A stretch of DNA of 45,182 nt from an uncultured Verrucomicrobiota bacterium (GTDB taxonomy: Bacteria > Verrucomicrobiota > Verrucomicrobiia > Chthoniobacterales > JACTMZ01). The position numbers and the translations under genes were made by a program. The number at the start of each line of letters is the position of its first letter. The stretch's first letter is position 1. Location of the stretch: assembly GCA_903953565.1 (NCBI GenBank), contig CAJBKE010000058.1, positions 1 through 45,182 on the forward strand. The letters run 5' to 3'. The notes below the pieces were generated by a model. It did no database searches and was not told the origin of the DNA. It worked only from the letters and a program-made list of their open reading frames with translations. Of this stretch, positions 11,756 through 30,248 are shown one piece after another.

Positions 11756-12655
11756 CTACTTAGATGACTTCTCGCGCTGCCGGCGTTCGAGCACGGAGCG
11801 CAAGTAGGCGCCATAGGTCGATTTGCCGAGGCGTTCAGCCGATTTGGCAAATTGCTCTTCGCTGAGAAAGCCCATTTCGAGTCCGATCTCTTCAAGGCAG
11901 GCAATGCGCAAGCCTTGGCGATGCTGGATCGTGCGGACAAATTCGGCCGCTTCGAGCAAGGAATCGTGCGTTCCAGTGTCGAGCCACGCGGTTCCTCTCC
12001 CCAGTTTTTGCACGCGAAGGTTTGCAGAGTCGAGGTAGGTTCGATTTAGATCGGTGATCTCCAACTCGCCGCGAGGTGAAGGTTTCAAGACCGCCGCACG
12101 CTCACAGACATCGCCCGGGTAGAAGTAAAGCCCCGGAATAGCAAAATGGCTTTTTGGATTGGCCGGTTTTTCCTCAAGACTGATCGCGCGACCTTCAGCA
12201 TCGAATTCGACCACACCATAGGCCTCTGGATCCGCCACCTCGTAACCAAAAATGCTCGCGTTGTCGGTATCGGCGTTGGCCGCAGCGAGCGTGTCGGTAA
12301 GATCATGTCCATAGAACAGGTTGTCTCCTAAAACCAAGGCTGCGGGAGATCCACGGAGAAATTCGGCTCCAATGATGAAAGCTTGCGCCAAACCTTCGGG
12401 CCGCGGTTGCTCGGCATACGAGAACTCGACTCCGAACTGTGATCCGTTGCCAAGCAACCGTCGGAAGTTGGGCAAATCCTCAGGTGTTGAAATCACGAGC
12501 AACTCCCGAATACCGGCCAGCATCAACACCGAGATTGGGTAAAAGACCATTGGTTTATCGTAGACTGGCATGACCTGTTTGCTGGTCGCCAACGTAAGCG
12601 GGTGCAGCCGTGAGCCAGAACCGCCCGCAAGCACAATTCCTTTCCGCCGAGTCAT
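11756..12655 (-). CDS. rmlA: Glucose-1-phosphate thymidylyltransferase
   Basis: 299 residues. Nucleotidyltransferase signature [16 protein letters not shown], then [35 protein letters not shown] (metal-binding Asp), [19 protein letters not shown] and [16 protein letters not shown]. All match RmlA. Makes dTDP-glucose from dTTP and glucose-1-phosphate, the entry to rhamnose synthesis; in this family dTDP-rhamnose usually feeds back. The start overlaps the end of the fused glycosyltransferase as ATGA, tying the rml genes to the upstream operon. Confidence 0.96.
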
Positions 12656-15270: not shown

Positions 15271-16488
15271 TTAATTTCTGAGCGCCGAAGCTTCGCGCCT
15301 TAATTTTCCGAAAGCTTTACAGCACATATTCGTTATCCTATGTCCCATAGTGGTCCTCGCAAACCTTGTTCCGAGACTAGCTTCATGAGCAGAGGTCGCT
15401 GCCTCGAGAACCCCCTCACCCCACTTTTTCAGGTGCAGCTTGGCTCGCTGCAGTGAGTTTGGCTCTCGGGCAGGATGCATCGGCTGGAAATCAACGCGGC
15501 CAACCCATGCACGACCCAAAGCCTCTGCGAGTGATCGCGGGTCCTTCGGATCGAAGTAGAAGGCCGCCGTGCCGCACTGCTCTTTGTGCACTTCTAAATC
15601 AGAACAAGCAATAGGCACGCCAAGGGCTTTCGCATCTTCAAGCGTGGTATTCCACCCCTCGCTCAGCGATGGCTGAATGACCAGAGACGTCAATCTAAGC
15701 AGGTCTAACAGTTCGTTGCGACTGACAGCGCCCAGCATGTGCACGTCCTCTCGAACGCCATGTTTCGCAACAGCTTGGAAAAACTCCGAAAGAATACTGT
15801 TCGAAGGATCCCGGTAATCAACCGGAGCACCTGTCAGAACAACGGGCAGGTTTATGCCGCCATGCCTCAGAGCGGCCAAGGCTGGTGGCAAGATAGCGTG
15901 ATTTTTGTGCGCCCAGAATTGGTTGGGAATTAGGGCAAACTTTGGGGGTAATCGATATTTCTGCAGCGTATCGCCAACCTCAGGAAGCTCCGCTTGGGCA
16001 GCGAACAACGAAGGAAACGGAAGGACGGCAGTTTTCTCTTTGCATTGTGGATAAAGAGCGGAGAAATCACGGGCTACAGCACGGCTTGAAACAATAACTT
16101 TTTCACAGATCACAGCTAGCTGCGCGTAGATTGTATTTCGGGATTCGGCCTCATGCGGTGCAAACAAATGCGGAAGATGAATATGCTGGAAGTCTGGTAT
16201 CCATCCGACCGCTGCTTTCCAAGCGGGGAGAATGCAATTTTGCAATGGTAGCAGAACATCGATGCCCAGCGACTTCTGAAGGTCGAGCCAGGCAGAAACA
16301 TTCGGCGAGAGATCTATATCGCAGACGTCGATTCCGGTTGGTGCTACCACTGCTGTGTTTGATCTAAAAAACACTATTTTTGTCCCGACAGGCTTCTGGG
16401 CCACGCTTATTGCAGCTAGCAGGGTGCGCGTGTACACCTCTCCGGCTGTCCAGTGAGGGCTCGAGCAATCTAGAATTCCGATCCTCAC
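15271..16488 (-). CDS. Glycosyltransferase, GT4 family (group 1)
   Basis: About 405 residues from GTG 16488, which overlaps the upstream SDR stop as GTGA; starts further up would lie in that gene. N-terminal domain RIGILDCSSPHWTAGEVYTR is the acceptor-side half. The C-terminal half carries the GT4 pattern: LIPNQFWAHKNH, VVLTGAP, HMLGAVSRNELLDLLR, VIQPSLSEGWNTTLEDAKALGVPIACSDLEVHKEQCG, with the conserved E-x7-E style donor site. FYFDPKDPRSLAEAL is also typical. It is similar in layout to mannosyl- or rhamnosyl-adding GT4 enzymes of O-antigen loci. Acceptor and donor unknown. Confidence 0.9.
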   Translation of the reverse strand: MRIGILDCSSPHWTAGEVYTRTLLAAISVAQKPVGTKIVFFRSNTAVVAPTGIDVCDIDLSPNVSAWLDLQKSLGIDVLLPLQNCILPAWKAAVGWIPDFQHIHLPHLFAPHEAESRNTIYAQLAVICEKVIVSSRAVARDFSALYPQCKEKTAVLPFPSLFAAQAELPEVGDTLQKYRLPPKFALIPNQFWAHKNHAILPPALAALRHGGINLPVVLTGAPVDYRDPSNSILSEFFQAVAKHGVREDVHMLGAVSRNELLDLLRLTSLVIQPSLSEGWNTTLEDAKALGVPIACSDLEVHKEQCGTAAFYFDPKDPRSLAEALGRAWVGRVDFQPMHPAREPNSLQRAKLHLKKWGEGVLEAATSAHEASLGTRFARTTMGHRITNMCCKAFGKLRREASALRN

Positions 16489-17411
16489 GTTACTTTGCGT
16501 GCCAGTTCTTTCCGAATCCAAATTAGCAAATCATCAAGTCCCTCTGACATTGAGACTGAAGGCTCGAAGCCGACCTCGCTGATCTTTGCAATATCTGCCC
16601 TCCATCGCTCGGGATCATAACCGCGACGCTTTCCACGAAAAGCAACAGGGCATGCCCCGCACTTTGCAGCGATTGATCGCGCCAAGATATTCACCGATGT
16701 TTCCACACCAGAGGCAACGTTGTAAGAAGATCCATCCGGCGATACCTTCTCGGCAAGAAGGACGATGGCTTTTGCTATATCATGTGCATGCACGAAATCG
16801 CGTGTTTCCTCGCCAGTTCCATGGAGCTGGATGGATTTCTCCTCAACCGCTTGGCGCGCCGCTTCCCAGATGACTTGTCGACGCAGACCTGCTCCGTAAG
16901 CGGAAAATATCCGCGCGACAACGGTCTGCATTCCGAAGAGACTGCTCGCCTGCTCGCAGAGCATTTCGGCCATGCGTTTGTGGTAACCATAGGGCGAAAC
17001 GGGCCGGATGGGGCAGGACTCCGTCACCGGAAGTTCATCCGGTTGGCCATAGACTGCGGCACTGGACAGGTAAATAAAGCGGGTGTTCGGCGCCGACCGA
17101 CGGCACTGGTTGATCAGCCACTCGGTCAACATGACATGCGAAGCAAAATCATCGTGCGGATTAGTCATGGACTCCGGAACAGATGCTTTGCCCGCGCAAT
17201 GAACCAAAACATCAGGAGCCACCTCGGACAAGAGAGCGCTAAAGGCAGCATCGGGCAGTGACATTGAGATGGTGCGCAGGTCAGAGGACTCGTGCGAGTC
17301 ACCAGGCATAGCGTTATCCAGCGAGGTGACCGCATAACCTGAACTTCCGAATGCCCCCGCGATCTTGGCTCCCAGAAATCCTGCCCCACCAATCACCAGC
17401 GCTGACTTCAA
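16485..17411 (-). CDS. NAD-dependent nucleotide-sugar epimerase/dehydratase (SDR)
   Basis: 308 residues. Extended SDR with VIGGAGFLGAKI at the N-terminus, VLVHCAGKASVPESM, YLSSAAVYGQP with the Ser, and SPYGYHKRMAE (YxxxK). RDFVHAHDIAKAIVLL and YNVASGVETSV are the usual substrate-domain elements of GalE-like enzymes. Function: epimerisation, reduction or dehydration of a nucleotide sugar; the exact reaction cannot be told. Overlaps both neighbours by 4 bases, so it is part of the cassette that also makes the modified pseudaminate. Confidence 0.85.
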   Translation of the reverse strand: MKSALVIGGAGFLGAKIAGAFGSSGYAVTSLDNAMPGDSHESSDLRTISMSLPDAAFSALLSEVAPDVLVHCAGKASVPESMTNPHDDFASHVMLTEWLINQCRRSAPNTRFIYLSSAAVYGQPDELPVTESCPIRPVSPYGYHKRMAEMLCEQASSLFGMQTVVARIFSAYGAGLRRQVIWEAARQAVEEKSIQLHGTGEETRDFVHAHDIAKAIVLLAEKVSPDGSSYNVASGVETSVNILARSIAAKCGACPVAFRGKRRGYDPERWRADIAKISEVGFEPSVSMSEGLDDLLIWIRKELARKVT

Positions 17412-18241
17412 ACCGGCACCTCCACAAGCGGGAGCCCTCCGATCAAAGCAGCCTCCTCCTCGAAGGTGGGAAACATCAACTTACCATCCTGGTTCCGGGC
17501 TTCGCGGAAGGCTCTCTGCACATAGCCTTCTTGGGCCGTCAATTCCCTCAGCGGCGGATGCAGCAGATCGCTTTTCACAAAAAAGGCATTATTACCAGCG
17601 CTGTTAGATCCCACGAAAGAATAACCCTTGGTTTTTCCCAAGCCGACCAAAGCAGCAAGCGAAGCGCCATAGTAGCTCCACGAGTAGTGGGCTTTTTGAC
17701 GCACAAAGCCCGGATCGTAAGGCACGGTCACGGATCTCGTCGGACCGAAAAGCGCGTTGTATTCCACGACAACGATGTCCGGTGTGATGACATCAATAGC
17801 CTTCCACACCCAGTAGTCCATGCCGTCAATATCCACACTCAACAGACCAACATCACCGGAAATACCGTTTCCGCTAATGAGACGATTGATGTTTTCTGCA
17901 TCGACGAAAGCACTAACTGCTTTCAACCGGTGTTTCCAGTAGATCGCATCTGATTTGATTGCATCAACATGCTGCTGGCTTCCATCGATGACCAAACCGG
18001 ACCAATTATGTCCCTCGACTAACCACCGCGTATTTGCTTCGAGGTAGTTTTCGACACCGAACTCGACAAATACGTTACTGGATACACTGAGGTGCCGTAA
18101 AAGATACTGTATAATACCATCTTCGCCCCATTGCGAGTACACTTGAAATTCATTGAGATGTAACAGTGGTCTATTCAGCGTTGCTAATTGTTGCTCGAGA
18201 AGTTTTCCGAGCAGACGTAGTTGTTTGTCATTTGTTTGCAT
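17408..18241 (-). CDS. Methyltransferase-like protein of unknown function
   Basis: About 277 residues from ATG 18241; another ATG at 18259 is possible and neither has a clear ribosome site. After EFQVYSQWGEDGIIQYLL the segment VFVEFGVENYLEANTRWL resembles motif I of class I SAM-dependent methyltransferases. GLVIDGSQQ follows with the acidic end of strand 2, then LLSVDIDGMDYWVWKAI and PDIVVVEYNALFG, in the same order as FkbM-like enzymes. I cannot assign it to a characterised family. If active it may O-methylate a sugar of the glycan. It overlaps the unknown gene upstream by 14 bases and the SDR downstream by 4. Confidence 0.6.
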   Translation of the reverse strand: MQTNDKQLRLLGKLLEQQLATLNRPLLHLNEFQVYSQWGEDGIIQYLLRHLSVSSNVFVEFGVENYLEANTRWLVEGHNWSGLVIDGSQQHVDAIKSDAIYWKHRLKAVSAFVDAENINRLISGNGISGDVGLLSVDIDGMDYWVWKAIDVITPDIVVVEYNALFGPTRSVTVPYDPGFVRQKAHYSWSYYGASLAALVGLGKTKGYSFVGSNSAGNNAFFVKSDLLHPPLRELTAQEGYVQRAFREARNQDGKLMFPTFEEEAALIGGLPLVEVPV

Positions 18242-19253
18242 GGCGTTTATTCGCAGCATCCAGTAGGGTCTTACAAAATTGGAAAGAACGAGTAATCAAC
18301 GAAGGGGCACCGTCTTTGCGTCCGCTGTTTCTTGTGTCACGCTCTTCCTCACACATGAGTAGCGACGCGACTTCATTGTGACTAAGCATGTTCTCATATC
18401 CTAATTGGCTACGGGCCCAATTCACACACTGGTCGGCAATGTGTGGCTCCCTGAAAAGGAAACCATATTCGCGTCCGACGTGATTACCATTTTCCACACT
18501 GAGCCACCACTCTAGGATATGCGGATGTTCAATGTAATATGGATCATGCTCGAATTCTTCCCTTTTGAAAAAGGGACGAGGACCATAAATCGATGGCGCG
18601 GCCCCGCACAGAGCAGCATATGCGATATGACTGCCTATCCAATTTGAAGTGACATGAGTGAATCGCGATAGCAACTGTTTCATTCGTCTAAGCCCATTTT
18701 CATCATGCGCTTCGGCTCCTATTATGTAGGGAATTTGTCTTTTCCTCAGATCTGATATCCATCTTCCCGAGGAAAGACATGACGGATGTATACAAGCTGC
18801 AACAACATCAAAGTCCCCTATCACAGAATCTAAGCACTGGAAATAGTCTGACTCAGCATATTCAAATGTTACGTAATCTAAAGAGTGAAAAGGCATTATA
18901 AGAAGGCTGTTAGGAAACTTGCTCACTTTTATATCCTCACAATAGAGAATAGGTGCACCTATAGCCTTGGCGCTTGTGGCTCCTAGTTTGAACATGGCAA
19001 GCTGTTCGGATTCCCTATGCACAAGCAAGGGCCAACTTGCTGGCGCTTTATGCCATCGGTAAAGCTCAAGAAATTCTGGAGAATTATATTGCCATCCGTG
19101 ATACCAAAAGCCGCGCAACATCTCCGGCTGAAATCCATCGATAGCATCGCTAATCACGCGCGATGCGCCGTAAAAGTCACATTCAGACCGGATCTCAATC
19201 CGGTTTGGGACGTCTATGTTAGCGAATAGGAGTTCGGGACTTATTCGCTTCAT
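18228..19253 (-). CDS. Uncharacterised protein in the pseudaminate cassette, possibly a glycosyltransferase
   Basis: About 341 residues from ATG 19253, 10 bases after the stop of the HisF-like gene; an in-frame GTG at 19283 would overlap it. I do not recognise a family. Visible: no signal peptide or membrane helix; FWYHGWQYNSPEF; FDVVAACIHPSCLSSGRW; then TSNWIGSHIAYAALCGAAPSIYGPRPFF, where a His followed by ALCG and a small-residue turn resembles the donor site of some GT-B transferases. The gene is clearly AT-richer than its neighbours (18841-18900 has 18 G/C in 60), which suggests transfer. Given its place next to CMP-sugar synthesis, a nonulosonate transferase is one guess, without direct proof. 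Confidence 0.6.
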   Translation of the reverse strand: MKRISPELLFANIDVPNRIEIRSECDFYGASRVISDAIDGFQPEMLRGFWYHGWQYNSPEFLELYRWHKAPASWPLLVHRESEQLAMFKLGATSAKAIGAPILYCEDIKVSKFPNSLLIMPFHSLDYVTFEYAESDYFQCLDSVIGDFDVVAACIHPSCLSSGRWISDLRKRQIPYIIGAEAHDENGLRRMKQLLSRFTHVTSNWIGSHIAYAALCGAAPSIYGPRPFFKREEFEHDPYYIEHPHILEWWLSVENGNHVGREYGFLFREPHIADQCVNWARSQLGYENMLSHNEVASLLMCEEERDTRNSGRKDGAPSLITRSFQFCKTLLDAANKRHANK

Positions 19254-19263
19254 TTGAGACTTA

Positions 19264-20058
19264 TTAGGATTCAGTAATAACACTGCGGTTGGTGTTTTTC
19301 TCAGTTCTTACGGCGACCCCATTTTTTGCAAGAAAGCGCTTAGCTTCCAATGGAGTTTTTGGTGTGAAGTGAAAAATGCTCGCCGCAGCGACCGCGCTGG
19401 CACCGCCATGTGCTACCGCAGATAGCATATGCTGATATTCACCTGCTCCGCCAGAGGCGATGACAGGCATTCGCACGGACTCTGAAACCCGCTTGATGAG
19501 ATCGAGATCGTAACCGCTCATTGTTCCGTCGCGATCGACGCTCGTCAGCAGGATTTCCCCCGCGCCGCGATCTTCGAGTTCACGCGCCCACTCGGTAGGT
19601 TCTCGTCCAGTGGCCGTGGTTCCGCTACGACCGTAGCACTCATATCGTCCATCGGGCGAACGGCGGACATCGATACTTGCCACAATACATTGCGCACCAA
19701 AGCGATTCGCTGCCTCCGTTACGAGTGAGGGTTTTTCGTAGGCAGCGGTGTTGATACTTACTTTATCGGCACCCGCGTGGAGCAAGCGTGTGATGTGCTC
19801 GACTGTGCGGATACCACCACCGATCGTCAGAGGCACAAAACACTCTGCGCTTAAATCAGCGACAGACTCGTAGTCAGGCTCACGCTCCTCGCTTGTGGCG
19901 GTGATCTCGACAAGGATGAGCTCGTCTACGTCGCGGGTGTTATAGACCTTGATGGCGGGCAGGATCGTGCCGACACGTCGCCAACTGTCGAAACCCACCC
20001 CTTTGACCAGACCGAAGTCTTTCCAAAGCAGCGTCGGGATGACTCTGACTTTCAACAT
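19264..20058 (-). CDS. HisF-like cyclase-type subunit of a sugar amidotransferase system (HisF2/WbuZ-like)
   Basis: 264 residues, a (beta/alpha)8 barrel like HisF. Phosphate-site motifs are present: PLTIGGGIRT, DKVSINTAA, VASIDVRR (second catalytic Asp), ILLTSVDRDGT, PVIASGGAG. The first catalytic Asp of true HisF (Asp11 in LDVKDG) is replaced: this protein reads IPTLLWKDFGLVKG, with Leu at that position. That fits the paralogues that channel ammonia to WbpG-type enzymes in O-antigen loci and argues against histidine synthesis. It overlaps the HisH-like gene, which is followed by the WbpG-like gene. Confidence 0.88.
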   Translation of the reverse strand: MLKVRVIPTLLWKDFGLVKGVGFDSWRRVGTILPAIKVYNTRDVDELILVEITATSEEREPDYESVADLSAECFVPLTIGGGIRTVEHITRLLHAGADKVSINTAAYEKPSLVTEAANRFGAQCIVASIDVRRSPDGRYECYGRSGTTATGREPTEWARELEDRGAGEILLTSVDRDGTMSGYDLDLIKRVSESVRMPVIASGGAGEYQHMLSAVAHGGASAVAAASIFHFTPKTPLEAKRFLAKNGVAVRTEKNTNRSVITES

Positions 20059-20675
20059 CCCGGACGTGCGAGGAAGTTCTTGAGAAGCTGCATGCCCGGG
20101 CGTGAGCTTTTTTCAGGGTGGAACTGAGTTCCGAAAACGTTCCCGGATCCGACGACCGAGGCAAACTCACCGCAGTATGGTGTCGCTGCAAGTATGTCCG
20201 AAGCAAGCGAGGCACGAAATTGGTAGCTGTGGACAAAGTAAAAGTCGGTTCCGTCACCGATGCCGGCAAGAAGCGGACTGGAGGCTTGCCGGTGGCGCAC
20301 TTCATTCCATCCGACATGGGGAACGCGCTCGCCTTGGCCGGCCACCAAACGAACCACCTCGCCGGGAATCAAGCCCAAGCCGGCGGTCTCCGCAACTTCG
20401 TGTCCTTTGTCGGCGAGAAGTTGCATGCCAAGGCAGATTCCCAAAAGACGGACCTCGGGATTGCTCAGTGCCTCGGAGAGTTCACCGGGCCATCGCGCGG
20501 CTTCCAGTCTGGCCATGGCATCAGGAAAAGCGCCGACCCCCGGCAGCACGATCCGCTCGGCGCCGACGAGTGAAGTCGGATTTTCAGCGATTTCCACGGT
20601 TGCCCCGCACTCTTCGAGCGCACGAGCGACCGATCCGAGGTTACCCATGCCGTAGTTAATCAGCACGACCTTCAT
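20052..20675 (-). CDS. HisH-like glutamine amidotransferase of a sugar amidotransferase system
   Basis: 207 residues, class I glutaminase. Catalytic Cys in LGICLGMQLLA, His and Glu in TQFHPEKSS, all intact; INYGMGNLGSV at the N-terminus and VLPGVGAFPDAM form the oxyanion side. Known role of such HisH2 proteins: release ammonia from glutamine for the WbpG/PseA-type enzyme, with the HisF-like partner as conduit. ATGA overlap with the WbpG-like gene upstream and a 7-base overlap with hisF2 downstream suggest coupled translation of the three subunits. Confidence 0.9.
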   Translation of the reverse strand: MKVVLINYGMGNLGSVARALEECGATVEIAENPTSLVGAERIVLPGVGAFPDAMARLEAARWPGELSEALSNPEVRLLGICLGMQLLADKGHEVAETAGLGLIPGEVVRLVAGQGERVPHVGWNEVRHRQASSPLLAGIGDGTDFYFVHSYQFRASLASDILAATPYCGEFASVVGSGNVFGTQFHPEKSSRPGMQLLKNFLARPGC

Positions 20676-21823
20676 GTATTGTCGTCGTTGACTTTGCTGA
20701 GACTCCCGTGACGGTCTTTCAAGAGATTGCCATTGGCATCGCGACGGAAAATCTTTTTGTTCGTAAAGCGGTCACAGATCTTCACAAACTGGTCAACCGT
20801 CATATCCAAAGGCTCCAATATGTCCTCCAGGGACTTGCCCAGATAAGTCCAAGGGAATCTTCCATCGTGACGTCTGACCATATCCAGGGCGTCCTCGCGG
20901 GTAATTCGCCCGCGGCGGAGATGGAGGCACGCGATATCCGTCGCACGACCGAAGCCAAACTTGAGAAACTTGAAGTAGTCGTGGATGCCAGTTTGATGGT
21001 TGTCCAAGTTCTCGTAGTTGACAACTGATCCCTCGACCGTGGTGCTCAAGGTCTCGAATCCGGTCGCCTGGGCGATAAGGGCATTGCTGTAGCCGTCCCA
21101 GGGAATGTAATGGCCCAGAAACAAGCCAGTCACTCCGACCCTCTGAAGTTCATCATCGGTTGGGTAGGTGTAGGGAATGAGGTCTCTCTCTTTAAGGTCT
21201 TCTATTCCGACCAGATCGCTCACGCGCATGCCGAGCAGACCACCAAATTCCTCCAGCCAAGCTCTATTCAGGATATTGTTGGCGGAAGCTGCAGCCGGTC
21301 CGCCGTATTCGTTTTGTGAATTCTCACCCCAAACGAGCAGAGGAATACCGAATTGCACTGCCGCCCTGACCGGTATGGTAAAAATGCCCACATGCTCGGG
21401 CCAGGAAATGTCCCCGACCTGCTCCAAACCAATTTTGTTGAGCTTCCTACGAACGACGGGGTTGGGTGAAAACTCGACGTAATCGACACCGAGGTTCTTG
21501 ATGTTTTGAATGTTTCTCCTGCCGATATCGGACAAGTCACAGGTCGTTGCCGTCACGCACAGCGGGTTGAGGCCGAGTTGGAGGACGCGAACAACTTGAT
21601 AGGTGCTGTCTTTTCCTCCGCTGACGGGAACAATACAGTCCCAGTTTCCGCCATTGCGGCCCTTGTATTTTTCCAGGATTTCATGCAGTTCGATCCTGCG
21701 TTGATTCCAGGCGATCTCCTTGCGATTTTCATACGAGCGGCAGGCGCTGCAGACACCTTGGTCGTCGAATTTGAGGTCCGGCTTGGTGGCCGGCATGACA
21801 CAACGTGAGCAATATTTTAGCAT
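20672..21823 (-). CDS. N-acetyl sugar amidotransferase, WbpG/PseA-like
   Basis: 383 residues. A four-Cys zinc-like site (YCSRCVMPATKP and VCSACRSYENR) precedes a PP-loop ATPase motif VPVSGGKDSTYQV at about residue 66. VWGENSQNEYGG is also typical of the family. PP-loop enzymes activate the N-acetyl carbonyl with ATP so ammonia can replace oxygen, giving an acetamidino group. WbpG acts on a mannuronic derivative in Pseudomonas aeruginosa; PseA acts in making acetamidino pseudaminic acid in Campylobacter. Next to pse genes here the second substrate is more likely; that is inference. Confidence 0.9.
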   Translation of the reverse strand: MLKYCSRCVMPATKPDLKFDDQGVCSACRSYENRKEIAWNQRRIELHEILEKYKGRNGGNWDCIVPVSGGKDSTYQVVRVLQLGLNPLCVTATTCDLSDIGRRNIQNIKNLGVDYVEFSPNPVVRRKLNKIGLEQVGDISWPEHVGIFTIPVRAAVQFGIPLLVWGENSQNEYGGPAAASANNILNRAWLEEFGGLLGMRVSDLVGIEDLKERDLIPYTYPTDDELQRVGVTGLFLGHYIPWDGYSNALIAQATGFETLSTTVEGSVVNYENLDNHQTGIHDYFKFLKFGFGRATDIACLHLRRGRITREDALDMVRRHDGRFPWTYLGKSLEDILEPLDMTVDQFVKICDRFTNKKIFRRDANGNLLKDRHGSLSKVNDDNT

Positions 21824-21827
21824 GGCA

Positions 21828-22454
21828 TTAATCGGTTTTTTGCATAAGGAACCAAGTCAGGTCATCTTGGGGAAAATGGGAATCACCGTGGTAGGCAAAC
21901 CCATAATCAACCAATTGAAGCGACGGGTGCCTGGCCATCATCTCTCCCGCGAAATCACGTTTGAAAAGCCGGTCGGCATGACCGCGGTAGCTGATGGCCA
22001 CCGGGCTCGGGTTATAGTATTCCGCCAAGCATATGTAGCATGAACTGGCTTTGACCATCAGTTCGTAAACCTGATCCAGAACATCCGGGTTCAGATGGAT
22101 AAGGACTCCCTTGATCAGCACGAGGGAGCTCGTGGCCGTGGGTGTGAACTCTAAGATCGATGCATGGTGGACCTTGATAAATCCGTGGCGCTCGAGTTCG
22201 GTGGCAGCCTGGCGATTGATCTCTACACCGGAAAAGGACGCGTCCGGAAGAATTTGCTTCAGCGCGAGTAGATTAAGCCCCCGGTTCGCTCCCAGTTCAA
22301 GAACGCTACTGATGCCCCTGGTTCGCGCAAGAATTTTGGCAAAAAGGGCGATGTTCGAGGCAATCCAACGCGCTTCCGCATTTCGTTCGGTGTAATCGTT
22401 GCCGAATTCGCCGGCCCAAAACTCTTCCTGAGGTGTTTTGTAGGTGTTTTTCAT
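21828..22454 (-). CDS. Pseudaminic acid biosynthesis-associated methylase
   Basis: 208 residues. The opening TPQEEFWAGEFGNDYTERN is the hallmark of the methylase family found next to pse genes. SAM-binding motif I is SVLELGANRGLNLLAL, followed by FSGVEINRQAA and the post-motif SSLVLIKGVLIHLNPD. Likely methylates pseudaminate or a precursor, though the acceptor for this family is not established to my knowledge. It overlaps pseI by 4 bases and sits 4 bases before the WbpG-like gene. Confidence 0.85.
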   Translation of the reverse strand: MKNTYKTPQEEFWAGEFGNDYTERNAEARWIASNIALFAKILARTRGISSVLELGANRGLNLLALKQILPDASFSGVEINRQAATELERHGFIKVHHASILEFTPTATSSLVLIKGVLIHLNPDVLDQVYELMVKASSCYICLAEYYNPSPVAISYRGHADRLFKRDFAGEMMARHPSLQLVDYGFAYHGDSHFPQDDLTWFLMQKTD

Positions 22455-23506
22455 GGTTCAAAAAGATCACTTGAAAGCGGTGTTCCGCGACGGACATCCG
22501 ACTTTGCCTCGCGGCCCAATATGTTATGCAGGCGCTTGACCGGCAGTCCATATCCGGGCCGGATAGAGCGAACGTTCGCGCGAGTGAACTTTTCCCCCTT
22601 CTTTACATCCTCTACAACGAACAGCGAGCGCCTGAAGGCGCGACTAGCTTGTTCTTTTTCGCTCAACTCATAGCAGACTTTGCCGAGCGATTTCTCGGCA
22701 ACTCGAACCGCCTCAACCATTGACCGGAACTCATCCGGCTCCAAAGAAAAGGCTCCATCTGGTCCGCCATCGCTGCGGCGCATGGTCAGATGCTTCTCGA
22801 TGATGCACGCGCCGAGAGCAACTGCCGCTACCGGGACTGCGGTGCCGAGCGTGTGATCCGAAAGCCCAACCGGCAAATCGAAGGATTCTGCCATGTGCGG
22901 AATGGTGCGCAGGTTCATATCCTCGGGAAGTGAGGGATAAGCGCTGGTGCATTTGAGCAAGGCAAGCTGCGTGCAGCCGTTGGTTCGCAAAATCTGAACA
23001 GCCTCTTCGATTTCCTCGAAGGACGCCATGCCTGTCGACATGATCACCGGCTTGCCGGTGGCGGCCACTTTCTTGAGCAACTGCGTATCGACCAATTCAA
23101 AGGAGGCAATTTTGTGCGCAGGGACATTCATCCCTTCGAGGAAGTCCACTGCCGTGTCGTCGAAAGGAGTGGAGAAGCAGTGCAAACCCAAGCTTTCGGC
23201 CTCTTTCTTCAACTCCGGTTGCCACTCCCATGGAGTATACGCTTCGGCATACAAGTCGTGGAGATTCTTGCCCTCCCACAATGTTCCTTTGCCCACCATG
23301 AATTCAGGCCGGCGACAGTCGAGCGTCAAGGTATCGGCTGTATAGGTCTGTAGCTTGATTGCATCCGCTCCGGCGTCTTTGGCCGCCCGCACAACTTCCA
23401 AGGCTTTCTCGAATGACTGTCCGTGATTGGCCGACAACTCTGCAATGATGTAGCAGGGCTGACCTGCGCCGATGCGCCGGCTTGATATTTGTATTTCAGC
23501 AGCCAT
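22451..23506 (-). CDS. pseI: Pseudaminic acid synthase
   Basis: 351 residues, normal length. NeuB-family aldolase barrel: YIIAELSANHGQSFEKAL, DAIKLQTYTADTLTLD, FSTPFDD, KIASFELVD, VIMSTGMAS, LLKCTSAYPS, GLSDHTLG, EKHLTMRRSDGGPDGAFSLEP. A C-terminal antifreeze/SAF-like domain starts near residue 290 (RRSLFVVEDVKKGEKF). SDGGPDGAFS matches pseudaminate rather than sialate synthases. Condenses 6-deoxy-2,4-diNAc-altrose with phosphoenolpyruvate. Stop/start TAATG with the PseG-PseH gene upstream. Confidence 0.94.
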   Translation of the reverse strand: MAAEIQISSRRIGAGQPCYIIAELSANHGQSFEKALEVVRAAKDAGADAIKLQTYTADTLTLDCRRPEFMVGKGTLWEGKNLHDLYAEAYTPWEWQPELKKEAESLGLHCFSTPFDDTAVDFLEGMNVPAHKIASFELVDTQLLKKVAATGKPVIMSTGMASFEEIEEAVQILRTNGCTQLALLKCTSAYPSLPEDMNLRTIPHMAESFDLPVGLSDHTLGTAVPVAAVALGACIIEKHLTMRRSDGGPDGAFSLEPDEFRSMVEAVRVAEKSLGKVCYELSEKEQASRAFRRSLFVVEDVKKGEKFTRANVRSIRPGYGLPVKRLHNILGREAKSDVRRGTPLSSDLFEP

Positions 23507-25023
23507 TACGAGGTTCGATGCAGCAAATATTGCTCAGCCGGTTGGCTTTTGACGATGGTGTCAGCGCCTCGGAGGAATCCTGCGCCCTCAAAGACGCGAA
23601 CCGAAGCTTTGTTTGTCGGCTTGATCAAGGCGCGGACCAAATCAACTTCGGATGACGCAAACATTCGATCGCAAGCGGAACTGACGAGCTTTTTCCCACA
23701 GCCCCGACCTCTGGCATAGGGAGCGAGAGCGACGGAGATGATCGCCTCCGAATCATGCTGGTCGAAGCGCACAACACCGATCTTTCCGAACTCCGCATTT
23801 GTGGCGATCCAAAAGCTGCACTGGGGATCCTGAAGCTTAGCGTGGAACCAATCCTTGTGCCGTTTCAACGGAATAGGCTCGGCATCGAACGAGTTGGCTC
23901 TGGTTGCAGGGTCATTGGCCCATTCCCACAGCAACTCGCAATCAGCTTTGGTAACTGGATGCAATTCGAAATCCGCTCCCCCTTTTAAAAGCGAGGCCAC
24001 CCAGCGCGCTCCAAGTCCATCGACCATGTCTCGGCCTAGGGCCGCGAATCCAGTTCGTAGCGCGGCGTCACCAGCCAATCGATCGATGGCTGCACGGAAA
24101 GCGTCTGCGTCAAAATCAGCATGGCGTCCGAAACAAAGTCCGAATCCCTGCCTTTCCAACTCGCGCAGGTTCTCTTCCTGATTTTCGGCAAGAATGATGA
24201 ACAGCGACGGCAAGCCAGTGAAGGCAAGTTCCCAAGAAGTAGAACCACCCGCAGCAACAGCCATGTCAGCCCATCGCATAAGGACCAGCATGTCGGACGC
24301 GTTGACTATCAACTCCACGCGGGTCCCCCCCATGGTTGCGGCCTCAGCCGCTCGGCGCAAGCTCGACAGATGGGGGTTACTTCCACCGACCGCAACTCTC
24401 ACCTCAAGGCCCGAACCCGCAAGAGCATCGATGACTCTCTTGGTCACATTGTCCGCATCCGCGCCGCCTAAGGTCACTAGCAGCTTTTTCGCTTGTTTCG
24501 GAATAGCGCGCACCCAGCCGCAATGATCCACGAACTCCCGGCGCAATAGTGCAAACCTCGGACCAAGCACCAACTCCGTGCTCTCATCGCGCCGGGCATA
24601 AAGCTCCTCGCGAGCGGAGATGTTTTGGTTGAGGACGATATCCGCGTGGTAAGCGCCGGCGTGGCCATAATCGTCCAACACCAAGAGCCGGCAGCCGGAT
24701 TCCTTCAGGCGCAGTTGGAAGTCAGCACCGAATTGATATCCATCGAGTGCGACTGCCACTGATCGGTCGCCCTTGGCATTTCGTGAAATACATTCCGTTG
24801 TGGCCTCGAGGTCATCCACGCCGCCCGGGACGGCGCCGAACCTTTCAACCTGAAAGTCTTCTTCTCGGATTCTTTGCTCGAGTTGTGGAGTGATGTCCGA
24901 GCACAGGAATGCAACATCGCCCCCGCCCTCCCGCCAAGCCTGCGCCAAAGCGATCATGCGCATCACGTGACCGGTTCCCATGACAACACCGGCATCTGCG
25001 CGTATGAGCAGAGGTTTTTGCAT
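23506..25023 (-). CDS. PseG-PseH fusion: UDP-sugar hydrolase plus N-acetyltransferase
   Basis: About 505 residues from ATG 25023; a GTG at 25032 is the alternative. Residues about 1-335 are PseG: ADAGVVMGTGHVMRMIALA, CRLLVLDDYGHA, LVTLGGADADNVT, AVAAGGSTSWELAFTGLPSL, a GT-B-like hydrolase that removes UDP from the altrose intermediate. Residues about 345-500 are a GNAT acetyltransferase with the acetyl-CoA loop APYARGRGCGKKLV and IKPTNKASVRVFEGAGF, matching PseH, which N-acetylates C4. In Campylobacter and Helicobacter these are two genes. The fusion supplies two consecutive steps (acetylation then UDP removal), completing the pathway with pseB, pseC, pseF and pseI. Confidence 0.9.
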   Translation of the reverse strand: MQKPLLIRADAGVVMGTGHVMRMIALAQAWREGGGDVAFLCSDITPQLEQRIREEDFQVERFGAVPGGVDDLEATTECISRNAKGDRSVAVALDGYQFGADFQLRLKESGCRLLVLDDYGHAGAYHADIVLNQNISAREELYARRDESTELVLGPRFALLRREFVDHCGWVRAIPKQAKKLLVTLGGADADNVTKRVIDALAGSGLEVRVAVGGSNPHLSSLRRAAEAATMGGTRVELIVNASDMLVLMRWADMAVAAGGSTSWELAFTGLPSLFIILAENQEENLRELERQGFGLCFGRHADFDADAFRAAIDRLAGDAALRTGFAALGRDMVDGLGARWVASLLKGGADFELHPVTKADCELLWEWANDPATRANSFDAEPIPLKRHKDWFHAKLQDPQCSFWIATNAEFGKIGVVRFDQHDSEAIISVALAPYARGRGCGKKLVSSACDRMFASSEVDLVRALIKPTNKASVRVFEGAGFLRGADTIVKSQPAEQYLLHRTS

Positions 25024-25043
25024 GCAAAGCACGCAGAAAAGGA

Positions 25044-25733
25044 TTAGCTGCGAACAGCGAACATCTTTTCCGCACGATTCCAGTCTTCGGGAGTGTCGAT
25101 GTCCTGCACCAAGTGCCTGGGCAGAACCACCGGATATGACTGAGCGCTGAAGAAGCCCTTCTCGCCCAGAAATGCATCACGCCGCCCCCAATAGAACTGT
25201 CCTGCGTCATGCCACGCTTCGGGCAAATCCTGCGATCTTTTCAATTCGTTCTCCGGCCAGAACATTTCCACGCGCCCGCTCTCAGTGATTTGCAGCGCGC
25301 GGAAAATAGGAAAAGCGTAGCTTGTTACACTAAAGGAAAATTCGGCCTCGGGCTTCTCACGCAGGAGGTCCAAGCCCTTGCGTAGATAATCCGGCTGCAG
25401 GAAAGGTGCCGTCGCATAAACACAACAGCAGTAATCCAAAGCACCCCTGTGCTCCTCCCACCACCGGATGGCATGCACGATCACCGGCATGGTGGCGGTG
25501 TGGTCATCGCAAAGCTCGGCAGGACGCACGAAGGGAACCTCCGCTCCAAGCGACTTCGCCACCGCCGCTATCTCCTCGTCGTCGGTCGATACCACCACCG
25601 CATCGAAGATACCTGACGCGAAGACCGCTTCAATCGGCCAGGCAATCATCGGTTTGCCACAAAAAGGTCGCACATTTTTGCACGGTATTCTTTTGCTACC
25701 GCCTCGCGCTGGAATGATGGCGATGGCGCTCAT
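25044..25733 (-). CDS. pseF: Pseudaminate cytidylyltransferase
   Basis: 229 residues. CMP-sugar synthetase signature AIIPARGGSKRIPCKNVRPFCGKPMIAWPI at the N-terminus, VVVSTDDEEIA, CVYATAPFLQ, and PRHLVQDIDTPEDWNRAE, whose paired acids bind the metal. Activates pseudaminic acid with CTP for transfer to the glycan. FYWG at about residue 185 fits PseF. ATGA overlap with pseC upstream; 20 bases to the PseG-PseH start. Confidence 0.94.
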   Translation of the reverse strand: MSAIAIIPARGGSKRIPCKNVRPFCGKPMIAWPIEAVFASGIFDAVVVSTDDEEIAAVAKSLGAEVPFVRPAELCDDHTATMPVIVHAIRWWEEHRGALDYCCCVYATAPFLQPDYLRKGLDLLREKPEAEFSFSVTSYAFPIFRALQITESGRVEMFWPENELKRSQDLPEAWHDAGQFYWGRRDAFLGEKGFFSAQSYPVVLPRHLVQDIDTPEDWNRAEKMFAVRS

Positions 25734-26992
25734 TTCACTGCCGCAGGTATTCCACCGAGATCCCGGACCGAGTCGATGACCCTTTGCACGTCTTGGTCAG
25801 TCATAGACGGATAAAGGGGCAGACTCAGCGCGCGGGCATAAAAAGCTTCGGCGTTGGGACACTTGCCGGGCGCATAACCGAAGGTGCGCCGATACCAAGG
25901 CTGCAAATACACCGGGATGTAGAGAACTTGGGAGCCGACACCTTGATCTCGTAACTCCTGCATGACTTCCGTGCGCGTCTTGCCCAACCGCGCAAAGTCT
26001 ATTTGCACCGTATAAAGATGAAGGGAGAGGTCGACGAGACTGAAATTGAAATCAGAAGAAGTAGCGGGTAACGGGTCACCGCTAGCCAGTGAGGGAATCG
26101 TCAGGAATTCCAAGCTAGCGAAGGCTTCGTTATACTGCTGCGCGATTTCCTGACGGCGAGAGATGAATTCGGGTAAACGCTGTAATTGAGAGCGACCAAG
26201 CGCACACTGCAGATCAGTGATCCGGAAATTGAAGCCGAGATCCTGCATTTCATAATACCAAGGACCAACTTCGGAAAGCTGAGAGTTGCAAACTGAAGTA
26301 TGGTTGGTGCCATCGACTAGCCCGACGAAGTCGGATGGATTGCGGGTCACGCCATGGGCCCGCAGCAAACGAGCCTTTGCTGCCCACTCGTCGTTATCAG
26401 TCACCAAGATACCCCCTTCCCCGGTGGTCATGGTTTTGACCGGGTGAAACGAGAACGTGCTTATATCCGCCCACGGATGTCCGCCCAGCTTCCATGATTT
26501 GCCGTCGGCCTCAAAGCCTCCGCCGATGCCATGGCAGGCATCTTCAATCACATACGCTCCGCGACTTCGTGCAATCCGCGCGATTTCGGGCATGTTGCAC
26601 GGCACGCCCGCGTAGTCGACGGCAACAACCACTTTAGTGTCAGGCTTCCAGTGACTCTCCAACTTGCGCGGATCGAGATTATGAAACTCCGGATCGATGT
26701 CGATGAAGTCGGGTGTTGCGCCGACGTAGGCGGCTGCATTGGCCGAGGCCAGAAAAGTATTGGAACTCGTGACGACGCGGTCGCCATGTCCAATACCGAG
26801 AACTTTCATGGCAAGATGCAGCGCCGCCGTGGCATTGCAGACTGCGACGACATGCTTGGCCCCAACCCTTGCCGCGAACTCGCGCTCAAATAACTCGACT
26901 TCGGGCCCGCAGGTCAAAAAGTCAGAGCAGAGCGCACGTACGACGGCGTCGACGTCGCTCTCGTTGATGGAATGGCGCCCGTAGGGCAACAT
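25730..26992 (-). CDS. pseC: UDP-4-amino-4,6-dideoxy-N-acetyl-beta-L-altrosamine transaminase
   Basis: 420 residues. DegT/DnrJ/EryC1 PLP enzyme starting LPYGRHSINESDVDAV, with CNATAALHLAM, IEDACHGIGG, and SFHPVKTMTTGEGG supplying the PLP lysine. HTSVCNSQLSEVGPWYYEM and YNFRITDLQ-type (FNFRITDLQCALG) segments follow. Transfers an amino group from glutamate to C4 of the PseB product. Somewhat longer than the usual 375-390 residues, mainly from a stretch around 210-235 and 300-330. Shares a base with the pseB stop. Confidence 0.93.
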   Translation of the reverse strand: MLPYGRHSINESDVDAVVRALCSDFLTCGPEVELFEREFAARVGAKHVVAVCNATAALHLAMKVLGIGHGDRVVTSSNTFLASANAAAYVGATPDFIDIDPEFHNLDPRKLESHWKPDTKVVVAVDYAGVPCNMPEIARIARSRGAYVIEDACHGIGGGFEADGKSWKLGGHPWADISTFSFHPVKTMTTGEGGILVTDNDEWAAKARLLRAHGVTRNPSDFVGLVDGTNHTSVCNSQLSEVGPWYYEMQDLGFNFRITDLQCALGRSQLQRLPEFISRRQEIAQQYNEAFASLEFLTIPSLASGDPLPATSSDFNFSLVDLSLHLYTVQIDFARLGKTRTEVMQELRDQGVGSQVLYIPVYLQPWYRRTFGYAPGKCPNAEAFYARALSLPLYPSMTDQDVQRVIDSVRDLGGIPAAVK

Positions 26993-27981
26993 CAGATATT
27001 GCCGACCTTTGCGGCATTGTCACGAATCCACGCCTGGAGTTCAGCTTTGGTCATCCATTCGGAGTTGCTGTCGCTGGTGTAGCTGAAATCCTCCGAGACT
27101 TTTTTCCCGTTTTTAATGCGGTTCATGCAGTTTGACCAGTTGTGGATGGCGGGGAGGATCTTGTAGTGATGCTCGTATTCGTAGGTATAAAAGGAGTCCT
27201 CTGGGCCTATCATCTGCTCATGCACTTTTTCACCCGGTCGAATTCCGATGATCTCCTGTTCGGCGTTCGGAGCGACAGCTGCAGCAATATCAGTGACCTT
27301 CATGGATGGTATCTTCTTTACATAAATCTCCCCGCCTTCCATGTCCTCAAAGGCATGCCACACCAATTCCACCCCTTGCTCCAGAGAGATCATGAAGCGT
27401 GTCATGCGAGCGTTAGTGATCGGCAGCGTTCCTTTTTCCCGAAGCGACATGAAATAGGGAATTACTGATCCTCTTGACCCCATGACGTTACCATACCGCA
27501 CCACGGCGAACCGCGTATCGTGAGCCCCTGCATAAGAGTTGCCTGCAACAAACAACTTGTCTGCGGCCAGTTTGGTGGCCCCATATAGATTAATTGGACT
27601 ACTGGCCTTGTCGGTAGAGAGCGCAACGACCCTTTTCACTCTCTTGTCGATGCAGGCGTCGATCACATTCATTGCGCCCATCACGTTGGTCTTCACGCAC
27701 TCGAAGGGGTTGTATTCGGCCGTCGGGACGATTTTGGTGGCGGCGGCATGAACGACGTAATCGATACCGTCCAGAGCCCGGTAGAGACGTTCTCTGTCGC
27801 GGACATCACCGATAAAAAATCGCACCCGGGGATCACCTTCAAATTTCTTTGCCATCTCCCACTGCTTCATCTCATCTCGCGAGTAGACCACGATCCGCGC
27901 CGGGTTGAGCTTGGTGAGTGTCATGGAGACAAACATGTTTCCAAAAGATCCCGTCCCGCCGGTGACTAAAATTGATTTCAT
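26992..27981 (-). CDS. pseB: UDP-GlcNAc 4,6-dehydratase (inverting)
   Basis: 329 residues. LVTGGTGSFGNMFV, VYSRDEMKQWEMAKKF, VHAAATKIVPTAEYNPFECVKTN, ALSTDKASSPINLYGATKLAADKL with the catalytic Tyr-Lys. Soluble, single-domain enzyme that dehydrates UDP-GlcNAc with C5 inversion, the first committed step to pseudaminic acid. The active-site Tyr distinguishes it from the Met-containing membrane dehydratase at 3764-5635. First of the pse genes in transcription order, 18 bases after wzt. Confidence 0.95.
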   Translation of the reverse strand: MKSILVTGGTGSFGNMFVSMTLTKLNPARIVVYSRDEMKQWEMAKKFEGDPRVRFFIGDVRDRERLYRALDGIDYVVHAAATKIVPTAEYNPFECVKTNVMGAMNVIDACIDKRVKRVVALSTDKASSPINLYGATKLAADKLFVAGNSYAGAHDTRFAVVRYGNVMGSRGSVIPYFMSLREKGTLPITNARMTRFMISLEQGVELVWHAFEDMEGGEIYVKKIPSMKVTDIAAAVAPNAEQEIIGIRPGEKVHEQMIGPEDSFYTYEYEHHYKILPAIHNWSNCMNRIKNGKKVSEDFSYTSDSNSEWMTKAELQAWIRDNAAKVGNI

Positions 27982-27999: not shown

Positions 28000-29355
28000 C
28001 TAGGTTTTGGTTTCTACGTTGAAGTTGGTCGCCAAGGGCTGATAAGGAATGCCCGCCACTGGATTCCACGTCCAGGCAACATCAAAGTGACCGGCACGCA
28101 TGGCATAAACAAGAGCTTCGATCGAATCCTTTCGGCCGATCCAAAGATTCCATGAATATCGCCCAGCGTGGAGGAGCAACGGATCAATAGCGAAGCGAAG
28201 CACAGAGCGGCCCTTGGGAAGATCCCACGCGGTCCCGGTCCTCTCGAGGCTCCAATTCATAACTGGCCGCTCTTGCTGATCGTTAGCGGTGAAGGAGAGC
28301 GTTAGATTATGGATGATCTCAGAGCTTTCGACCTCTACCTCAACAGGGAAGGCTTCGCCATACCCTATCGGTTTCTCCTGAAGCCTGACCGTGGCTGCTT
28401 TGACAGGAGGGTAGATCTCGAAAACCGCGCCACCGTCGATCGATTCGGTGCCGTGATCCGTATTCAGGTTGTTGTAGGCCTCGATTCCTTTGATGGGATC
28501 CCGATAGAGACTCATCCGGCCATGCTGCATGAGAGCGACAGACCGGCAAATCGCGGCCACGAAGTCCATGCTGTGCGACACGAAAATAACAGCACTATTC
28601 TTGATGAGCTTGTTGATTCGGTGATAGCACTTATGCCTGAAGCGGGCATCGCCGACAGCAAGCACTTCATCTAATATCAGGACATCAGGATCCAGTGTCG
28701 TGGCGACCGCAAAACCCAACCTGACCTGCATGCCCGAACTGTAGTTCTGCACCGGCATGTCGATGAATTCTCCGATCTCAGCAAAGTCGATTATCTCGTC
28801 GATCTTCTCGTCGATTTCTTTTTTCGAAAGACCCAACACCGAACCATTGATGTAGATATTTTCCCGACCAGTTAGGATCGGATTGAACCCGGCTCCCAGA
28901 GCGATCAAAGCTCCAACCCGCCCGTTCATCTCGATCCGACCGTGATCGGGCTTGATCAAACCGTTGAGCATTTTCAGCAGCGTGGTCTTCCCTGCCCCAT
29001 TATGGCCGATCAGTCCGAGGCATTCGCCGCGGCGCAGTTCAAAGCTCACATCTCTCACCGCATAGAACTCTCCTTCGCGCAGATCTTCATCTCGCGCCGC
29101 CACCGCGGGGGTATAAGGGATATGGGAGATGGAGGATTGCGCCCCATCTACCATCTCCAATCTCCTATCTTCCGCGATATCGCGTCGCCCGAAGGGCGAC
29201 AATTCCCCCGCGATATCGCACAGCCCATACCAAAGCGATCGCTTCAACGAACGGCAGAATTTCTTTGAGACGCCCTCGACCTTGACCAAGACTTCTTGGT
29301 CTGCAGTCAAGGAAGCGACGTGTTGCGAGTTTGTTATGACTCGTCTGGAATTCAT
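28000..29355 (-). CDS. wzt: Polysaccharide ABC exporter ATPase with C-terminal cargo domain
   Basis: 451 residues from ATG 29355. N-terminal ABC domain with Walker A GHNGAGKTT, signature YSSGMQVRLGFAVAT and Walker B VLILDEVLAVGD, then HSMDFVAAICRSV. A C-terminal domain of about 150 residues (from EIYPPVKAATV) matches the Wzt glycan-binding extension. Between KRSLWYGLCDIAGELS and GEFYAVRDVSF there is a longer than usual insert (about residues 48-92) encoded by repeat DNA with palindromes (29174-29219). With wzm it exports lipid-linked glycan across the inner membrane. Confidence 0.92.
   Translation of the reverse strand: MNSRRVITNSQHVASLTADQEVLVKVEGVSKKFCRSLKRSLWYGLCDIAGELSPFGRRDIAEDRRLEMVDGAQSSISHIPYTPAVAARDEDLREGEFYAVRDVSFELRRGECLGLIGHNGAGKTTLLKMLNGLIKPDHGRIEMNGRVGALIALGAGFNPILTGRENIYINGSVLGLSKKEIDEKIDEIIDFAEIGEFIDMPVQNYSSGMQVRLGFAVATTLDPDVLILDEVLAVGDARFRHKCYHRINKLIKNSAVIFVSHSMDFVAAICRSVALMQHGRMSLYRDPIKGIEAYNNLNTDHGTESIDGGAVFEIYPPVKAATVRLQEKPIGYGEAFPVEVEVESSEIIHNLTLSFTANDQQERPVMNWSLERTGTAWDLPKGRSVLRFAIDPLLLHAGRYSWNLWIGRKDSIEALVYAMRAGHFDVAWTWNPVAGIPYQPLATNFNVETKT
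29174..29219. repeat. Palindromic repeat cassette inside the wzt reading frame
   Basis: Two identical palindromes GCGATATCGC (29174-29183 and 29210-29219) flank the hairpin GTCGCCC-GAA-GGGCGAC (29184-29200). The hairpin resembles the GAA-loop hairpins at 30289 and 31101. It encodes DIAGELSPFGRRDIAED in Wzt, giving a DIA repeat in the protein. Likely an inserted or expanded repeat tolerated in frame. Confidence 0.7.
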
Positions 29356-29396
29356 CAAGTTACTTTTAGCTTTAACCCGCCACGACTGAGCTTCGC

Positions 29397-30248
29397 TCAG
29401 CCCCCCATCCTTTCAATCAAATGCGGCATGGCGATACGGAACCCGATAAGGCCTAGCAGAATCACGATTAGCGAACCAGCGGTGACGAGGAAAAACGGAC
29501 CTAGAACGGACAAAGGCTGCGCTGTCAGACATTCCCGAGCTGTGATGATGAGGGGCGAGATCGGATTCCACGTGGCCAACCAACCGGCAATCCCGCCCGT
29601 CTGCGGGGGGTAAACCACGGGCGTCAGCAGCATCCAGAATCCGGCGACAATCGGAATGGCGCGAGCTGCATCACCGTAAAGACTGGAAATAGGGGTGATG
29701 AACACACCGATGGCAAAACCGGCTGCCAACAACCCAAGGATGGCAACAGGCAAAAATGCCAAGCTTGGGCTAACAGGGATGCGCCAAAGGATCACCACCG
29801 CAGCGATCAAGACCAGGCGAATCGCCGCGTTAAACAGCACCATGTAAAAGCCACCCATGAGCACCGCTTCGCGGGGAAAATTTATTTTCACAAGCATCGC
29901 TTTCGCTGCGCCGAACGATGCCGAGGGACTGACTAACGCATCGACGAAGATCTGCCACAACAAGGTCCCCGTGAGGGCAAAGGCCGCATAGGGAACGCCG
30001 ACTACCTCGATACGCGTGATACCCTGCGACTGGAGAAAGATAAAGGTGGCAGCGGCAACAAGAGGCGGAAGAAAGGCCCAGACATAACCCAAAAGCGTCT
30101 GACGATATCCGGCCCGCAGATCGCGCAAAAACAACCGCCAAGCTAACTCACGACCCGCCCATACGTCCTGCGCGATCTCGCGCAGCATGACGACCGGATG
30201 CCTGAGCAGCGGTTCAGGTGTGTAGACTTTGCGATGAATTGATGTCAT
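29397..30248 (-). CDS. wzm: Polysaccharide ABC exporter permease
   Basis: 283 residues. ABC-2 type permease: cytoplasmic N-terminus with LFLRDLRAGYRQTLLGYVWAFLPPL (the amphipathic interface and first helix), then about six membrane segments including FALTGTLLWQIFVDAL and FWMLLTPVVYPP. NPISPLI is a common motif of Wzm. Pairs with Wzt 41 bases downstream. First gene of the polysaccharide locus in transcription order; upstream lies a purine-rich spacer (30249-30390) with one flanking repeat of the toxin-antitoxin module, with no clear promoter. Confidence 0.92.
   Translation of the reverse strand: MTSIHRKVYTPEPLLRHPVVMLREIAQDVWAGRELAWRLFLRDLRAGYRQTLLGYVWAFLPPLVAAATFIFLQSQGITRIEVVGVPYAAFALTGTLLWQIFVDALVSPSASFGAAKAMLVKINFPREAVLMGGFYMVLFNAAIRLVLIAAVVILWRIPVSPSLAFLPVAILGLLAAGFAIGVFITPISSLYGDAARAIPIVAGFWMLLTPVVYPPQTGGIAGWLATWNPISPLIITARECLTAQPLSVLGPFFLVTAGSLIVILLGLIGFRIAMPHLIERMGG

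Follow-up and report, generated by a model that had tools for sequence, protein, structure and literature searches.

Within the window, the whole stretch of 45,182 nucleotides analysed here, lies a surface-polysaccharide cluster with a complete CMP-pseudaminate pathway, comprising pseB, pseC, pseF, a pseG-H fusion and pseI (Table 1). A pseudaminate-associated methylase gene and wbuXYZ are embedded in the same pse operon (19264-22454), which predicts that the pseudaminate made here is amidino- and methyl-modified. The gene under study, hereafter the candidate, follows directly after wbuXYZ. Bordering the cluster are a Wzt-type ABC exporter gene pair as well as genes for rhamnose and glycosyltransferases. 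The probable Wzm permease of the window matched no family, and its relatives adjoin Wzt relatives at two other loci (L042 and L046); the ATPase and this neighbour likely form a polysaccharide export pair. The pseG-pseH fusion is a single ORF with PseG at residues 8-290 and a GNAT/PseH-like domain at residues 357-489, and PseGH ORFs of similar length occur in L017, L041 and L043; in L017, wbuXYZ also holds a comparable place in its cluster. The GT4-GT2 protein is 789 aa long, with a GT4 half, a GT2 half and a low GC3 (0.51). Near 31 kb of the window, GC rises from ~0.54 to ~0.61 and the GC skew changes sign, which suggests that the cluster is an acquired island.

Table 1 Features of the pseudaminate cluster, with coordinates in the window.
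Feature	Coordinates	Strand	Remarks
GT2 glycosyltransferases	9507-10457 and 8060-8776		in cluster
GT4-GT2 protein	12652-15021		glycosyltransferase of cluster
GT4 glycosyltransferase	15271..16521	-	PF00534; syntenic with candidate in L004, L021 and L046
NAD-dependent epimerase/dehydratase (SDR)	16485..17411	-	PF01370; syntenic with candidate in L021 and L046
FkbM-like methyltransferase	17408..18259	-	weak Pfam match PF05050, E=0.2; start overlaps candidate gene end
Candidate nonulosonate (pseudaminate) glycosyltransferase gene	18228..19253	-	intact ORF, 341 aa from ATG, predicted GT-B fold
Most conserved C-terminal Rossmann stretch, residues 202-225, TSNWIGSHIAYAALCGAAPSIYGP	18579..18650	-	from column conservation; strand-helix-strand in model
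Possible N-terminal extension of candidate from GTG	19254..19283	-	overlaps wbuZ end; judged unlikely
wbuZ/hisF2, glycosyl amidation-associated	19264..20058	-	TIGR03572 above cut-off
wbuY/hisH2, HisH-type glutamine amidotransferase	20052..20675	-	TIGR01855 above cut-off
wbuX, N-acetyl sugar amidotransferase	20672..21823	-	TIGR03573 above cut-off
Pseudaminate-associated methylase	21828..22454	-	TIGR03587 above cut-off
pseI, pseudaminic acid synthase	22451..23506	-	TIGR03586 above cut-off
pseG-pseH fusion (hydrolase and N-acetyltransferase)	23506..25032	-	TIGR03590 above cut-off; PseH-like C-terminal domain
pseF, CMP-pseudaminate synthetase	25044..25733	-	TIGR03584 above cut-off
pseC, aminotransferase	25730..26992	-	TIGR03588 above cut-off
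pseB, dehydratase	26992..27981	-	TIGR03589 above cut-off
Wzt-type ABC ATPase and neighbour (probable Wzm permease)	28000..30248	-	teichoic-acid/galactan exporter models

The original prediction, made from the letters of the DNA, had described the candidate as an AT-rich gene of an unrecognised family, situated between an amidotransferase unit and a methyltransferase-like gene. Our analysis bears out each of these points. The reading frame is real, no Pfam or NCBIfam model matched its protein at E<=1, searches of PDB sequences with the protein alone and with a profile returned zero matches, and a PHROGs search gave nothing. On one side lie wbuX-wbuY-wbuZ and on the other the weakly FkbM-like gene. 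A GTG located 30 bases upstream of the ATG would extend the ORF to 19283 (351 aa), yet the ATG is the likelier start because the alignments of relatives begin near it. The low GC was reproduced exactly at 18841-18900 (18 of 60 bases), a value equally low in only 2 of 4513 sliding 60-base windows; the gene as a whole has a GC of 0.458, compared with 0.563 for the window, and its GC3 of 0.430 is the lowest among 20 cluster genes. We considered whether this composition marks a foreign, unrelated insertion and rejected the idea, since the reading direction fits, the downstream neighbour overlaps and relatives share the context.

We next turn to the predicted fold. The AlphaFold (AF2) model of the candidate adopts a GT-B fold with a mean pLDDT of 88.7 and a pTM of 0.84. 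Foldseek returned weak E-values for this model (best 2e-3), and nearly all matches listed were GT-B enzymes. With VIA-align, the matches listed were all GT-B glycosyltransferases or 2-epimerases of GT-B fold, with Z up to 10.3 over ~220-245 residues and with 2-epimerases, TagF and Bcs3 among them; the matches to GT-B enzymes cover residues 20-308. A second member, only 23% identical to the candidate and modelled separately, but from the same sequence set, showed the same fold (pLDDT 80, pTM 0.82), with 24 Foldseek matches at E<=0.001 and VIA-align Z-scores up to 11.5. Both models fit the definition of GT-B, a pair of Rossmann domains that face each other across the active site, and the unrelated fold that would have spoken against the predicted transferase was not seen. 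The candidate is very probably a GT-B glycosyltransferase of some kind. The leading matches of the second member were the cytidine-nucleotide enzymes Bcs3 (with CMP), TagF and TarL (Z ~11), although their lead over UDP enzymes lies within ~1-2 Z; so small a lead does no more than hint at a cytidine donor. No known CMP-sialic-acid or Kdo transferase was among the VIA-align matches listed for either member.

To place the candidate among known enzymes, we compared it with transferases that use the proposed type of donor. The Kdo transferases of GT99, GT107 and GT140 (WbbB, KpsC, KrkA) and the sialyltransferases of GT29, GT38, GT42, GT52 and GT80 use CMP-activated keto-sugar acids, and several have a GT-B or modified GT-B fold like the candidate; their characteristic motifs, however, are not conserved in its family. 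One of these, (K/R)XHP, is the CMP-binding motif of the sialyl/Kdo transferases GT29/38/42/52/80/99/107, and the other, QXXXD, is the nucleophile motif of the retaining Kdo transferases GT99/107/140 (PMC12887879). In our alignment of 17 members, HP (residues 156-157) occurs in 3, the residue two before this position is never K or R and is C in most members, and no conserved Q was found among the invariant or near-invariant columns. If the proposal of CMP-NulO (nonulosonate) transfer is right, the donor site is therefore built differently. A functional parallel is GT118 KpsS1 of Acinetobacter baumannii, summarized in PMC12887879 (citing Walklett 2024) as a retaining pseudaminyltransferase 30% identical to E. 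coli KpsS. As outlined there, KpsS1 is a polysaccharide-cluster enzyme related to GT-B Kdo transferases, and its transfer of pseudaminate from CMP-Pse is the very reaction proposed for the candidate; KpsS1 is nevertheless KpsS-like, whereas the candidate has no PF05159 match and showed no significant profile similarity to four PF05159-matching proteins other than KpsS1. The Maf flagellin NulO transferases (PF01973) also take Pse or Leg from CMP donors, as proposed for the candidate, but no PF01973 match was found to the candidate protein or in the genome of the window. TagF and TarL (PF04464) and the capsule enzyme Bcs3, all users of cytidine nucleotides, rank with the best fold matches (Z 10-11), and the candidate family has in common with them an N-terminal HG motif and a comparable spacing of C-terminal motifs; yet there is no significant sequence similarity, the candidate lies outside PF04464 at E<=1 despite the similar fold, and its context is NulO synthesis rather than polyol phosphate. 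By this comparison, the candidate family would work like the Pse/NulO transferases (Maf, GT118), and no membership of a tested family was found, for GT118/PF05159 as judged from the four proteins above.

Might the candidate simply belong, as a remote relative missed by our profiles, to one of the known families of NulO, Kdo or polyol-phosphate transferases (GT118 KpsS1, GT52, GT38, GT99/107/140 or TagF-like)? Such a relationship would overlap with a nonulosonate transferase in function and differ from our reading in family. The fold class is the same, the order of motifs (HG, GxP, LLxxP, xxH, SNxxGS) resembles that of TagF-like proteins by eye, and the alignment with Capsule_synth, though not significant, lies in the segment where it would be expected. 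Against it, there is no significant profile match, and the motifs defining the sialyl/Kdo groups are not conserved. The original prediction had called for a profile-profile search; local and global hhalign comparisons of the family with PF04464 and PF05159 members were not significant. We consider distant membership of this kind distinctly unlikely.

Searched with the candidate sequence alone, 97 genomes yielded 2 relatives. Successive profiles (A1, A2, A6) extended the search, and the family is now found in 19 Verrucomicrobiota genomes in total, namely that of the window and 18 others. Outside the phylum, tblastn with distant family members detected relatives on three plasmid records, from Aureibacter tunicatorum (Bacteroidota), Azospirillum brasilense and A. 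argentinense, all three annotated as 'hypothetical protein'; a plasmid search with the window protein itself gave no match, and no relative was found among viral contigs and phages. Alignment of 17 members shows that H52 (as H-G) and G217 are invariant and that Y28, G53, L118, H123, D184, R190, G207, Y212 and G285 are nearly so. The most conserved stretch of the C-terminal Rossmann domain, residues 202-225, is likely the nucleotide-sugar site. In the family tree, two groups separate with good support, one of 11 rows and one of 6, and each has members beside PseI. Our literature search of open papers, outside which subscription papers mostly fall, found no description of this family.

The most telling evidence for function comes from the association with nonulosonate synthases. 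A NeuB/PseI synthase lies within 10 kb of the family gene in 13 of the 19 Verrucomicrobiota genomes, window included. A PF03102 match is present in 16 of the first 18 family-positive genomes, and in 13 of these it is on the same contig as the family gene at a distance of 0.26-9.2 kb; a fourteenth case is G487, where the 7-kb contig of the family gene ends in a PseI fragment. Across 384 genomes of the class, a clear NeuB was present in 13 of 14 carriers versus 79 of 370 non-carriers (Fisher p ~5e-8, taking genomes as independent, with shared ancestry uncorrected). By comparison, PF00534 GT4 genes of the same genomes were scarce within 10 kb of a synthase, with 3 of ~160 (the best half, approximately, of 313 matches) counted by reading, and one of these three sits in a fusion protein with the candidate family. 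As a separate check on a second collection, all three plasmids likewise have a synthase in the same stretch as the family gene: the Aureibacter plasmid shows the order pseB-C-F...pseI-GT4-family gene, and the two Azospirillum plasmids carry NeuB-family genes. The family is mostly encoded with NeuB/PseI-type synthases, and the co-occurrence whose absence would have refuted the original prediction is far above chance in Verrucomicrobiota and recurs in two other phyla. When ten neighbouring synthases were typed, 5 passed the PseI cut-off, 1 the NeuB cut-off and 4 neither, indicating that pseudaminate is not the only sugar with which the family is associated.

Since polysaccharide genes cluster anyway, co-location alone cannot separate a NulO transferase from a transferase of a neighbouring sugar. 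The candidate could instead be a GT-B glycosyltransferase for a sugar beside the nonulosonate, such as hexosamine or rhamnose from a UDP or dTDP donor, with a GT4 or GT2 protein of the cluster transferring pseudaminate. The cluster does encode such other glycosyltransferases (Table 1), UDP enzymes are among the best fold matches, and some family members have no NeuB nearby (G364, where it lies 109 kb away; G381, at a contig end; G308; G677; and G261, which has a CMP-sugar-synthetase-like gene 1.5 kb upstream). To our knowledge, however, the donors of known GT2 and GT4 enzymes are not CMP sugars. Moreover, the NulO synthase is the constant element across otherwise differing clusters, and in the Pse cluster of L017 (an 11.7-kb contig) no glycosyltransferase was recognised besides the family member. 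We regard this alternative as unlikely. The earlier statement that no other obvious transferase is present needs to be qualified along the same lines: GT4 and GT2 proteins do occur in the cluster, but none is of a CMP-sugar family known to us, and no Maf was found in the genome.

Gene order and protein fusions further connect the nonulosonate transferase proposed here with glycan assembly. The order candidate-FkbM-SDR-GT4 of the window is the same in L046 and rearranged in L021, and genes 59% and 50% identical to the FkbM-like gene lie beside the relatives in L046 and L021, respectively. In L040 and L042, FkbM-like C-terminal domains, read from the sequence, are fused behind the family domain. 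In P0001, P0002 and P0003, the family domain comes first in proteins 797-1981 aa long that contain between one and three GT4 domains, and two of the three additionally carry a methyltransferase. L017 and L043 present a compact arrangement, PseB-C-F-(WbuXYZ)-PseGH-PseI-family member, with the family gene directly after PseI.

Because the family is tied to NulO biosynthesis genes, we also weighed whether the candidate is a GT-B-fold enzyme acting on a nucleotide sugar, that is, a PseG- or NeuC-like hydrolase or an epimerase in NulO synthesis or modification. The GT-B fold is common to non-transferases such as PseG and NeuC, and 2-epimerases and NeuC are among the top fold matches; 2-epimerase matches, though, are common for any GT-B model. 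A separate PseG gene is present in the window, L005, L017, L041 and L043, and fusion of the family domain to GT4 arrays and methyltransferases is what chain assembly would lead one to expect. A role as hydrolase or epimerase thus appears very improbable.

Several relatives have unusual architectures. Two giant proteins, L018:1878-7448 (-) and L020:9805-15747 (+), of 1857 and 1981 aa, each join the family domain to three GT4 domains and a methyltransferase within a single chain, which looks like a glycan assembly line made of one protein; PseI lies 8 kb from the former, and none is near the latter. The member at L017:9551-11320 (+) extends C-terminally by ~250 additional residues, for which Pfam gave no match. 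A very divergent relative, L047:6961-8712 (-), carries another domain fused at its C-terminus, comes from a genome with no NeuB and may use another donor.

Computation thus shows a predicted GT-B fold, a family that exists well beyond the window, and a link of this family with nonulosonate synthases. Taken together, the fold and the co-occurrence with synthases support the transferase guessed in the original prediction, and we propose that the candidate is a NulO glycosyltransferase of a family undescribed in Pfam and NCBIfam, here for modified pseudaminate, with a probability of roughly two in three. As the family lies repeatedly beside genes for sialic-acid-like sugars, the candidate probably attaches modified pseudaminic acid to a cell-surface polysaccharide. 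In the mechanism we envisage, it would act as a cytoplasmic GT-B glycosyltransferase, the donors of its family being CMP-activated nonulosonic acids, and would take the amidated, methylated pseudaminate that the neighbouring pse and wbu genes produce and add it to the surface polysaccharide as this grows, ahead of ABC-type export. Binding of the nucleotide donor would fall to the C-terminal Rossmann domain (LLxMPxHS, xxC, GAxxxDxNxLxRM, TxNxxGSHxxYAxxxG), while the N-terminal domain, with its almost invariant HG (H52), may position the acceptor and provide the catalytic base. With about even confidence, we go further and suggest that these nonulosonate transferases form a GT-B family new at the CAZy level, spread horizontally over Verrucomicrobiota, Bacteroidota and Alphaproteobacteria, which would bind CMP-NulO without (K/R)XHP or QXXXD, around the N-terminal HG and TxNxxG(S/T)H.

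The pseudaminate transferases in the literature we found are few, comprising Maf proteins acting on flagellin and GT118 for capsule. If our reading is true, the family would give candidates for the missing last step in making polysaccharide-bound pseudaminate and related sugars. Its enzymes could also serve to make glycans that bear pseudaminate, and its genes to flag NulO polysaccharides in genomes. Should the CMP-binding motifs be truly absent, the family would reveal a further route by which GT-B enzymes handle CMP-sugars; on the reading as a new family, this fold would have given rise to CMP-keto-sugar transfer one more time.
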